From the NCBI RefSeq assembly GCF_964186625.1, contig NZ_OZ075108.1, positions 496,001-560,000 on the forward strand: a stretch of 64,000 nt of DNA. The letters run 5' to 3'. Under the pieces are notes generated by a model. It was not told the origin of the DNA. It saw only the letters and a list, made by a program, of their open reading frames with translations, and searched no databases. Shown here piece after piece: positions 12,937-48,900 of the stretch. This DNA is from Asticcacaulis sp. MM231 (GTDB taxonomy: Bacteria; Pseudomonadota; Alphaproteobacteria; Caulobacterales; Caulobacteraceae). Made by a program: the position numbers and the translations under genes. The first letter of the stretch is position 1, and each line of letters starts with the position of its first letter.

Positions 12937-15033
12937 GCACACCTGCGGATAAACCGGAAAATAAGTCCTCATCCGACGGCCCCTTGCTCGACCTGACCAA
13001 TTCCGCGGTCAAGAAGTTCATCAAGGCCGCCAAGTTGCGCGGCTACGTGACCATGGACGAACTCAACAAGGTTCTGCCGTCTGAGGAGTTTACCTCCGAA
13101 CAGATCGAAGACACCCTTGCCATGCTCACCGAGATGGGCGTGAACGTTATCGAGTTCGGAAGAAGATGCGCAGGAAGGCGGCGAAGTCGTCGTGCGCGAA
13201 GAAGCCGGCGCGGTGGTCGAAACCACCAAGACGTCCAACTATGATCGCACTGACGATCCCGTGCGCATGTATCTGCGCGAAATGGGTTCGGTCGAATTGC
13301 TGTCACGCGAAGGCGAAATCGCCATCGCCAAGCGGATCGAAGCCGGTCGCGACACCATGATCCGGGGATTGTGCGAATCCGCCCTGACCTTTGAAGCCAT
13401 CATGATCTGGCGCGAGGAACTGGGTTCCGGTCGCATCCTGCTGCGCGAAATCATCGACCTGGAAGGCACCTACGGCGGTGGCCCGCAGGAAGGCCCGCCT
13501 CCGGGCGCGCTTGGCGAAGAGGTCGAAGAAGGCGAAGTACCGGTCGGTGCACCTGTGCGGCCCATGCCCGCCGTTGCCCCAGCACCGGTGGTGAGGGCGC
13601 CTGAGCCTGTGGTCGAAACCAAGGCGGTCGTCGAAGCCAAGCCTGTAGAGCCCAAAAAGGCCAAGGGCGACGATGACGACGATGACGATTACGTCCCCAT
13701 GGACGAAGAAGAGAAGAAGCCGGAAGTCGTCGAAGAAGAAGACGAAGACGATTTCGATGACGGCGCCGGTCCCACGGTTTCGGCCATGGAATCCGAACTG
13801 CGCGAAGGCGTGATGGAGACCCTCGACGCCATCGCCGGCGAATTCGAGACCTATCGCCATACGCAGGAAAAGATGCTGACCGCCAAGCTTGAGGGCCTGC
13901 CCCTCGATCCTGCGGACCGCGCGGCTTACGATGAAGTGACGGCCACCATTACCCGCCACCTCAAGACGCTGAAACTCAACAATCAGCGTATCGAAGCGCT
14001 GGTCGAGCAGCTTTACGGCATCAACAAGAAGCTGATCGGTCTCGAAGGCCGCCTGCTGCGTCTGGCCGACAGCTACGGCATTTCGCGTACAGAATTCCTC
14101 ACCGCCTACTACACGCGCGAACTCGATCCGTCGTGGAGCGAGAAGGTTCGTGAAATGGGTATCCGCTGGCAGAAGTTCATTGATAATGACGGCGCCGCGA
14201 TCAACCGCATCCGCGCCGAAGTGACGACGCTTGCCACCGATATGGGCGTGGCAGTCGATGATTTCCGCCGCATCGTCCAGACCGTGCAGAAGGGCGAGCG
14301 CGAAGCCCGTCAGGCCAAGACCGAGATGGTCGAGGCCAATCTGCGCCTCGTGATCTCAATCGCCAAGAAGTACACCAATCGCGGCCTGCAATTCCTCGAT
14401 CTCATTCAGGAAGGCAATATCGGCCTGATGAAGGCGGTCGATAAGTTCGAATACCGTCGCGGCTACAAGTTCTCGACCTACGCGACCTGGTGGATCCGGC
14501 AGGCGATCACCCGTTCGATCGCCGACCAGGCCCGCACCATCCGTATTCCTGTGCACATGATCGAGACGATCAACAAGATCGTCCGTACCTCGCGCCAGAT
14601 GCTGCATGAAATCGGCCGCGAACCGACCCCGGAAGAACTGGCCGAAAAGCTGGCCATGCCGCTGGAAAAGGTCCGCAAGGTGCTGAAAATCGCCAAGGAG
14701 CCGATCTCGCTGGAAACGCCGATCGGTGACGAAGAGGATTCACACCTCGGTGACTTCATCGAGGACAAGAACGCCATCCTGCCGATCGATGCGGCCATCC
14801 AGTCCAACCTGCGTGAAACCACGACTCGGGTTCTGGCCTCGCTGACCCCGCGTGAAGAACGTGTGCTGCGGATGCGTTTCGGCATCGGCATGAACACCGA
14901 CCACACGCTGGAAGAAGTCGGCCAGCAGTTCTCGGTTACCCGCGAACGTATCCGTCAGATCGAGGCGAAGGCGCTGCGCAAGCTGAAGCATCCGTCGCGG
15001 AGCCGCAAGTTGCGGAGCTTCCTCGACAGCTAG
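12933..15033 (+). CDS. rpoD: RNA polymerase sigma-70 factor RpoD, with an apparent one-base insertion
   Basis: Primary housekeeping sigma factor. As given, the frame is broken at 13152-13157 (GAGTTC). Removing one T yields GAGTC, restores V-I-E-S-E-E-D-A and gives a 699-residue protein. Region 1.1 lies at the N-terminus, then the 1.2 segment [17 protein letters not shown], a long acidic insert (13664-13765, Asp/Glu runs), regions 2.1-2.4 (from [15 protein letters not shown] to [15 protein letters not shown]), region 3 and region 4.2 ([17 protein letters not shown]). A break in this gene would be lethal, so a consensus error is far more likely than a real frameshift or a programmed one. It follows dnaG by 118 bases. 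Confidence 0.93.
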
Positions 15034-15051
15034 GCAGGGACATGTCCCTGC
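15034..15051 (+). other. Perfect 18-bp palindrome directly after the rpoD stop
   Basis: GCAGGGACATGTCCCTGC begins at the base after the TAG stop. It is a perfect palindrome able to form a 7-bp hairpin with a short loop, about 20 bases before a recognisable terminator. It may protect the mRNA 3' end or be a protein site. Confidence 0.4.
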
Positions 15052-45961: not shown

Positions 45962-48900
45962 TAGAAAGCCTCCGGTTTAAGCTTGGCGGGAGCGGGCTGA
46001 ACGGGTGGCGGCAGGTCGTCGTGGTCGTCTTCGCCGGCCAAGGTGGAGGTGTGCGACTTCAGAGGACGGTTGCCGGACATGGCGCGCAGCAGCACGTAGA
46101 AGAAGGGGGTCATGAAGAGGCCGATAATGGTGGCCCCGATCATGCCGGAGAAGACGGCGATCCCCATGGCGTGACGCATTTCCGAACCGGCGCCGTGGCT
46201 GAGCACCAGGGGCAGCACGCCCATGATGAAGGCGATCGAGGTCATCAGGATCGGGCGCAGACGCAGGCGGCTGGCACGAATGGCGGCCTCCAGCGGATTG
46301 AGCCCTGTCAGTTCGAGTTCGCGGGCGAATTCGACGATCAGGATGGCGTTTTTCGCTGACAGCCCCACCAGAACGAACAGACCGATCTGGGTGAAGATGT
46401 TGTTGTCGCCATGGGAAATCCACACACCGACCATGGCGGAGAGCAGACCCATTGGCACGATCATGATGATCGAGATCGGCAGGACGACGCTTTCATACTG
46501 GGCGGCGAGCACGAGGAAGACGAGCAGGATAACCAGCGGGAAGACGAGCGACGACGAGTTGCCGGCCAGGATCTGCTGATAGGTCAGTTCGGTCCATTCA
46601 TACTCGATGCCGGCGGGCAGGGTCTCGGCGGCGATGCGCTTGACGGCGTCCTGGGCCTGTCCGGACGAGAAGCCGGGTGCCGGACCGCCGGAGATGTCGG
46701 CGGACAGGTAGCCGTTGTAGCGGCTGGCGGTGACCGGTCCGGAGGTCGGGTCGACCTTCAGCACGGCGGCCAGGGGCACCATTTCGCCGGTGTTCGAGCG
46801 GACCTTCAGCTTGCCGATATCTTCGGACTGGGCGCGATAGGGTGCGTCAGCCTGCACACGGACGCTGTAGGTGCGGCCGAAGCGGTTGAAGTCGTTGACA
46901 TATTGCGAACCGAGATAGATCTGCATGGTCGAGAAGATATCGCTGACCGAGACGCCCAACTGGCGGGCGCGGGTGCGGTCGATATCGGCGTAAAGCTGCG
47001 GCGTGTTGACGTTATAGCCCGAGAAGACGCCGGCCAGTTCCTCGGTTTGCGCCGCCTTGGCGACGAAGGCCTTGGTGGCTTCGTCAAGCTTCTGGTAGCC
47101 GAGACCAGCGCGGTCTTCGAGCTGGAGCTTGAAGCCGCCGGTGGTGCCGAGGCCAAGCAGTGGCGGTGGCGGGAACATGACCGAATAGCCTTCCTGAATG
47201 CCGCCGAGTTTGGCGTTCAGTGAACCGGCGATGGCGCCGGCACTCAGAGCAGCCCCTTTGCGTTCAGCGAAGGGTTTCAGCGGCATGAAGACGACCGCTT
47301 CGTTGGAGGCGATGGTGAAGCCATTGATCGACATGCCGGGGAAGGCGAGGGCATGGGCGACGCCCGGTTCCTTGCCGGCAATTTCCGACACCTTGCGGGC
47401 AACGGCTTCGGTGCGGTCAAGCGTGGCGCCATCGGGCAGTTTGACCATGCCGACGAGGTAGGCCTTGTCCTGCTGCGGGATAAAGCCGCCGGGTACGACC
47501 TGGAACATCAGGAAGGCCAGGCCGGCGAGACCGGCATAGAGGCCGAGCATGAGACCCTTGCGGCTGGCGATCTTGCCGACGCTTTTACCATAGGATTCCG
47601 ACGACTTTTTGAAGGTGCGGTTGAAGGCGCCAAAGAAGCCGCCCAGCCACTTGTCCATAAAGCGGGTCAGTCCATCCTTGGGGGAATCGTGGCCCTTGAG
47701 GAGCAGGGCTGCCAGAGCTGGAGAAAGCGTCAGGGAGTTGACGGCCGAGATGACGGTCGAAATGGCGATGGTCAGCGAAAACTGGCGATAGAACTGGCCG
47801 GAAAGGCCGGTGATGAAGGCCAGCGGCACGAAGACCGCGACGAGGACGAGCGCGATGGCGATGATCGGGCCGGAGACTTCGCGCATGGCCTGATAGGTGG
47901 CCTGGCGCGGGCTCTTGCCGGCTTCGATATTGCGCTCGACGTTTTCGACGACGACGATGGCGTCATCGACCACGATCCCGATGGCCAGAACGAGACCGAA
48001 CAGGGTGAGGGCGTTGATGGTGAAGCCGAAAAGGTGCATCACCGCGAAGGTACCGATGACCGAGACGGGCACGGCGAGCAGCGGAATGATCGAGGCGCGC
48101 CAGGTCTGGAGGAACAAAATGACCACGATCACGACGAGGATGATGGCTTCCAGCAGGGTATGGATGACCGAGTTCGATCAATTCGTGGACGTATTCGGAG
48201 GTGTCGTAGGCGATGGTGTAGCTGACGCCTTCGGGCATGGCCTTCTTCAGCGTCTCCATGGTCTCGTGGACCTCCTTGGAGAGCTGGAGCGAGTTGGCAC
48301 CGGCGGTCTCAAAGATCGGGATACCTACGGCGTTCTGGTTATCGAGCAGCGAACGCAGGGCGTAATCCGAAGCGCCCATTTCGACGCGGGCGATATCACC
48401 CAAACGGGTCACCGCGCCGTCAGCGCCGGTCTTGACGATGATGTTGCGGAAGTCTTCCTCGGAGGATAGGCGGCCTTGCGCATTGACCGAGAGGGTCAGG
48501 GCGACGCCGGGCAGGCCGGGCGAACCGCCGATGGTGCCGGCGGCGGCCTGGACGTTTTCCGAACGGATGGCGTCGGCGACATCTGAGGGCGACATGCCGC
48601 GCTCGGCGACCTTTTGCGGATCGAGCCAGACACGCATGGCGTAATCACCACCACCAAACATCTGGATCGGGCCCACGCCCTTGATGGCTTGCAGGCGGTC
48701 CTTGATGTGCAGCAGGGCATAGTTGCGCAGGTAGGTGACGTCATAGCGGCCGTTGGGCGAGGTGATGTGGACGACCAGCGGCAGCGACGATTGCGATTTC
48801 TGCGTGGTGATGCCGAGCGCGCGGACGTCGGCCGGCAAGCGGGCCTCGGCCTGAGACACACGGTTCTGCACCATCTGTTGCGCCAGGTCGGCATTGGTGC

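Follow-up and report, generated by a model that had tools for sequence, protein, structure and literature searches.

Consensus base-calling errors linked to GANTC methylation as the very probable origin of broken genes in the nanopore-only genome of Asticcacaulis sp. MM231

A stretch of 64,000 bases from the genome of the pond bacterium Asticcacaulis sp. MM231 (C1:496001-560000, hereafter the window) contains six genes, rpoD and polA among them, whose reading frames are interrupted at sites where a close relative carries the motif GANTC. Comparison of assemblies indicates that these frame breaks, together with a more numerous class of G-to-A changes at the same motif, are very probably consensus base-calling errors linked to GANTC methylation in an assembly made from Oxford Nanopore Technologies (ONT) reads only, and the six genes are almost certainly not truly broken. 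The MM231 genome comprises 4,647,610 bases in three contigs (3,458,694, 618,632 and 570,284). Its DNA was prepared with ligation kit V14 for an R10.4.1 flow cell, called with the super-accurate model in MinKNOW 23.07.5, and taken through Canu, racon and Medaka with the sup_v4.2.0 model; native DNA and nanopore reads alone are described, with no short reads, which makes this a native ONT assembly free of short-read polish (PMC11556081). The same authors put fragmented BUSCO genes at 4.4% and identify A. benevestitus DSM 16100 as the closest relative (PMC11556081), a choice reached independently by a polA search (genome G021). The window and 41 other MM231 stretches were compared with the matching stretches of A. 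benevestitus DSM 16100, 34 of the 42 pieces aligning over 570,008 bases at 94.7% identity; the 125 alignments were reduced to 101 by minimum values of 88% for identity and 500 for length, and to 97 by removal of overlaps. Most counts given here rest on this one relative.

An earlier, sequence-only reading of the window had reported GAGTTC or its complement GAACTC at six frame breaks, and the words are present at all six places, where A. benevestitus carries GAGTC or GACTC without exception. Five of the breaks consist of one additional base, MM231 reading CGAGTTCG or CGAACTCG there. In rpoD (13152..13157, + strand; GAGTC in the relative) the addition splits the sigma-70 domains across two frames; in polA (30989..30994, - strand; GAGTC) it leaves the 5'-3' exonuclease domain in one frame and the polymerase domain in another; in a chemoreceptor gene (27291..27296, - strand; GAGTC) it shortens the MCP signalling domain; and in an AcrB-family (RND) transporter gene (48170..48175, - strand; GAGTC) the ACR_tran profile runs across two frames. 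The fifth lies in a gene previously called an exported protein (18241..18246, - strand; GACTC), for whose window frame no Pfam match was found. The sixth break, in a glyoxalase-family gene (33243..33248, - strand; GACTC), differs in sign, the relative reading GAGACTC and the window being one base short. The notion of a single lesion shared by all six genes is therefore right for the five insertions and wrong for the glyoxalase gene, for which one extra T and one extra G had been proposed, two events with the same frame change as the single loss seen in the alignment. The CGAGTCG context ascribed to five of the six breaks is correct as the window reads. For rpoD the comparison reaches across the genus: at the break all 12 other copies (A. 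benevestitus and 11 further members) lack one base that the window has, and their open frames run to 686 codons or more, where that of the window has 629; a thirteenth genome, G001, holds rpoD in two contig-end pieces and stands outside this comparison. Around the chemoreceptor break, window positions 25129-26132 and 26992-28052 are chemoreceptor regions that both align to one place in A. benevestitus, possibly a tandem pair in MM231 where the relative has a single gene.

Concentration of frame breaks on GANTC

A frame break was counted as clean if it was a one-base gap lying 45 bases or more inside a frame of the relative that itself had 150 codons or more, if 60 columns or more separated it from the alignment ends, and if no second gap fell within 90 columns of it and local identity was 85% or higher. 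Forty such breaks occur in the 570 kb aligned, and 23 of them touch GANTC in the relative, a motif that takes up 0.98% of positions (p=5e-36). An excess of frame breaks, for which the sequence-only reading had proposed a test at GAGTTC, is thus seen at GANTC, and the suspected errors concentrate on the target of a methylase. Six of the eight clean breaks in the window touch GANTC; the other two, at 5049 and 10688, lie off the motif in short base runs and are either typical run-length miscalls or real changes. The insertions have a direction, being found at 22 of 310 GAGTC/GACTC sites from the relative to MM231 and at 0 of 210 in reverse, and in a smaller first data set the insertion rate of GAGTC/GACTC (13/155) was the highest among 5-mers with at least 20 sites, against a mean of 0.15%. 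One-base insertions are somewhat more frequent in the window than elsewhere (5/79 vs 18/855, p=0.04), a weak difference in a stretch that was noticed for this very feature. Counting the word itself is uninformative: GAGTTC occurs 33 times in the window against 26.7 expected, with 11 of 100 shuffles reaching 33, and CGAGTTCG occurs 406 times genome-wide against 450 for a reversed-pattern control, so that the raw count, also proposed earlier, shows no clear excess.

G-to-A changes at GANTC and their sequence context

Insertion is the minority class of error. Across the 934 GANTC sites compared, 23 half-sites carry an extra A and 137 a G-to-A change beside the target A. Where the relative has GANTC, MM231 often reads GANTT or AANTC, GAATC becoming GAATT 72 times (8 in reverse) and GAGTC becoming GAGTT 41 times (1 in reverse); on the strand that carries the change, the G preceding the target A is read as A, which is an A/G (or T/C) confusion beside a putatively modified base. 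When every 5-mer and 6-mer change was scanned in both directions, GANTC stood first in each list.

Selection filters real changes, not errors. Of 139 coding G-to-A changes at GANTC, 98 alter the amino acid, where random change would do so in 76% (from 1,590 possible changes), whereas all other coding G-to-A changes do so in 1,894 of 8,363 (p=2.6e-32) and coding substitutions overall in 28% of 24,245. Similar words used as controls behave like the remainder of the genome, with 8/45 for GANTG, 22/86 for GANAC and 12/54 for GANTT. Because the share at GANTC is near random, that is, unselected, most of these changes would be errors and not evolution. Other candidates were dropped. The change of GAGTC to GAATC, considered as a third class, is asymmetric (15 vs 2), yet it alters the amino acid in only 3/19 and then 6/25 cases, and this low share is that of ordinary evolution. 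GCCGA and GGTGA also appear in a plain scan for an excess of amino-acid-changing substitutions, leaving the top rows when set against the reverse direction, and excesses of this type are read as codon-phase effects.

The sites that fail are largely decided by their neighbouring bases. The error fraction is taken as errors over errors plus intact half-sites; outside it fall the mirror of each error, 10 deletions, 8 insertions of other kinds and 386 half-sites classed as other. Given for the strand on which the G errs, it is 0.28 for GACTC, 0.15 for GATTC, 0.09 for GAGTC and 0.03 for GAATC, and it is 0.20 where C precedes the motif and 0.017 where G does. A preceding C, with C or T as N, is the worst combination, and a preceding G protects. 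The two half-sites of the motif show an asymmetry of context. Among the contexts listed CGACTCG is the worst, with 27 errors against 19 intact and also the most insertions (8); CGAGTCG is its complement, which is why the sequence-only reading met that word at the breaks.

The substitution recurs in a second genome of the genus. ZE23SCel15 (G031), one contig of 3,774,217 bases, comes from R10.4.1 nanopore reads only, with Guppy 6.4.6 calling and Flye assembly (PMC10586169). In its comparison with genome G002 (293,417 of 360,000 bases aligned at 92.2% identity, 50 of 55 alignments kept), the change of GANTC to AANTC, from either side, heads the 5-mer list. It is found 58 times in the forward direction, 43 of them amino-acid-changing, and 11 times in reverse, none of them amino-acid-changing, with 926 of 5,932 other G-to-A changes altering the amino acid.

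The methylase, a proposed mechanism and competing explanations

A search of the MM231 genome with PF01555 finds two methylases. The first, intact at C1:2390667-2391737, aligns over residues 5-357 of 357 to positions 14-366 of 6pbd, a solved structure of the cell-cycle enzyme CcrM (E 4e-189), and carries PF01555 (N6/N4 methylase) and PF18755 (RAMA), so that its similarity to CcrM extends over nearly the full length. It is named a CcrM homologue here because it falls below the NCBIfam NF050803 cut-off (628.2 vs 830 bits), which is an annotation threshold and not a biochemical trait. From this similarity we infer that it methylates GANTC in MM231. The frame adjoining it resembles RNase HII by eye. 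CcrM homologues are found in 25/25 Asticcacaulis genomes searched, in pieces in G004 and G027; the G027 gene (C2:1706638-1707709) is split across two frames, with the break off GANTC. The motif is depleted in the window, at 81 occurrences against 284 expected from shuffles, and the available part of PMC3973325 reports GANTC avoidance for CcrM-bearing Alphaproteobacteria. The second N6/N4 methylase of MM231 lies at C1:2475174-2475896 (316 codons), and no second error motif that would fit it stands out in the 5-mer and 6-mer change scan.

The CcrM homologue would methylate GANTC at its adenine in each strand, and the super-accurate model would not have handled the modification, the methylated A disturbing the adjoining call. 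The preceding G would then be called A, or a surplus A inserted, a pattern that is seen in the comparison and for which methylation is the proposed cause. Reads from one strand would disagree with those from the other, and the assembler or polishers may sometimes have kept the wrong form. Inserted bases would break frames, and the commoner G-to-A errors would alter amino acids silently. Nanopore base-calling error at CcrM sites was the core of the sequence-only reading, and it gains support from the native, nanopore-only assembly, the CcrM homologue, the concentration of breaks and the unselected G-to-A changes.

Among the alternatives, a weakness of the base-caller for GANTC-like words, independent of adenine methylation, is the least improbable, with a small chance of being correct. 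The error rate depends strongly on the flanks, as would be expected of a pure k-mer effect, and the methylation itself is deduced from a homologue. The near-identical words GANTG, GANAC and GANTT, however, lack the signature of GANTC, the erring word is the exact CcrM target, and, in the accessible portions of three studies, amplification or methylation-aware models remove or reduce errors of this kind (PMC11610573, PMC10687267, PMC12710330). Real mutations at methylated GANTC in the living strain, with gene loss and protein changes as their outcome, would also yield differences from the relative that are present in the record and gathered on one motif, but this is very unlikely: a growing strain would have a broken rpoD and a broken polA, the G-to-A changes at GANTC fall on codon positions much as they would if selection were absent, and the pattern recurs in ZE23SCel15, a second lineage that shares the sequencing method. 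That the errors sit in the A. benevestitus record, the single close relative behind most of the counts, is scarcely credible, as the intact frames are those of the relative and 11 other genus members match its length at the rpoD site. Equally hard to credit is restoration of the proteins by programmed frameshifting or by a recoding word common to the breaks, suggested by GAGTTC at all six, since 160 of the 213 aligned GAGTTC words in MM231 are also GAGTTC in the relative (only 15 are GAGTC), so that GAGTTC by itself causes no frame shift, and breaks elsewhere in MM231 give other words (GAATTC, GACTTC, GAAGTC).

Several observations weigh against methylation-linked base-calling error as the explanation, or limit its reach. 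The case for both the errors and the methylation is indirect, being built from comparison of assemblies. Frame breaks that ignore the motif, which the sequence-only reading had named as contrary evidence, do exist, though as a minority: 17 of the 40 clean breaks lie off GANTC, several of them in base runs, and part of them may be real. Changes at GANTC also run in the reverse direction (23, of which 9 are amino-acid-changing), and for this reason a minority of the 139 coding G-to-A changes may be real. In ZE23SCel15 insertions are almost absent, at 4 of 402 GANTC sites (1 of 313 in reverse); as this genome repeats only the substitution, the G-to-A error would be common to both and the insertion class set by the caller, the assembler, the polisher or a mix of these. 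The last such observation concerns position along the chromosome. In growing Caulobacter hemimethylation is highest near the origin, according to the available part of PMC3973325, and should lower errors there, whereas errors in MM231 are, if anything, higher near the origin (coefficient -0.63, p=0.046), a weak trend that is not convincing and that is opposite to the simple prediction. Position 1 of C1 is taken as the origin because the authors rotated the chromosome to dnaA (PMC11556081). A methylation gradient may be absent anyway, since the MM231 culture had grown on a plate for seven days (PMC11556081). Within this positional comparison, limited to chromosome stretches (1,271 half-sites, 157 errors), the 31 stretches do not differ in error rate when context is accounted for (p=0.35). 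The earlier suggestion that the errors may report methylation state thus finds no support, as the rate follows the neighbouring bases, the stretches show no difference once context is allowed for and the positional trend points the other way.

Precedents and consequences for genome records

Errors of ONT data at methylase motifs are established, as the accessible parts of two studies attest (PMC10687267, PMC11610573). The nearest precedent is a set of agrobacterial ONT assemblies, which are alphaproteobacterial like MM231 and in which GANTC is likewise an error motif and methylation-aware models gave fewer errors; there the errors were shown by matching short reads, whereas in MM231 they are deduced from a relative and from missing selection, and, relative to the portion of that study available, the base change, the context rule and the insertion class are described for MM231 (PMC12710330). 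Brucella ONT assemblies also link GANTC and CcrM to assembly errors, with two potential errors mentioned in the part of the text at hand (PMC12392509), compared with about one in six GANTC sites in MM231 (160/934, some of them real changes). The ambiguous RA/TY positions of Kit 14 ONT data are a confusion of A and G before an A, from the same kit and flow-cell generation as MM231, and fit the G-to-A rule found here; they were described in Klebsiella and other species, the main pattern having no assigned motif in the available text (PMC11610573), whereas the motif in MM231 is GANTC. Modpolish, like the present analysis, finds motif-specific ONT errors by comparison with homologues, but its available description concerns GCAGC and GCTGG and makes use of reads (PMC10687267), where the MM231 analysis concerns GANTC and uses the assembly alone. 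The MM231 case itself and its scale appear to be new, as do the context rule, the class of insertions and the detection of such errors from an assembly alone. A narrow search of open-access literature, and thus a weak negative, gave no match for an assembly-only motif method or for false pseudogenes in ONT-only genomes; on strand-specific errors induced by methylation three papers were listed, and a similarly narrow search found MM231 only in its own announcement.

On balance it appears probable that an ONT-only assembly and one close relative suffice for one-directional, selection-blind word changes to name the methylated motif and the affected neighbour, with the mix of substitutions and insertions hinting at the base-caller or pipeline. 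Such a reading worked in two genomes for one motif; for the second methylase of MM231 it yielded none. If it holds, a survey of public long-read-only genomes could expose false pseudogenes and give orphan methylases their motifs. A systematic and mostly invisible error would be present in two published Asticcacaulis genomes, of which one is called complete and the other high quality. If the sampled stretches are typical, MM231 may hold false bases numbering roughly 1,100 to 1,300 and some 190 frame breaks that are not real; these figures extrapolate from the 160 events and 23 clean breaks in the 570 kb aligned. Users of the record would infer the loss of rpoD and polA, along with pseudogenes and amino-acid changes that do not exist. 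As a CcrM homologue is present in every Asticcacaulis genome searched, other native, ONT-only genomes called with such models deserve a check.

Besides the six breaks, the window contains ten suspected G-to-A miscalls, all at sites that are GANTC in A. benevestitus. Two are in rpoD, at 12963 and at 12999, the latter being G in all 12 other copies compared, one is in polA at 29643, and one at 48180 adjoins the transporter break at 48170. Position 7489 lies in a histidine-kinase frame (6588-9881) and 60131 in a TonB-dependent receptor frame. The remaining four would be G-to-A on the - strand, at 21558, 46560, 52885, which is in a FeoB-like frame, and 58259.

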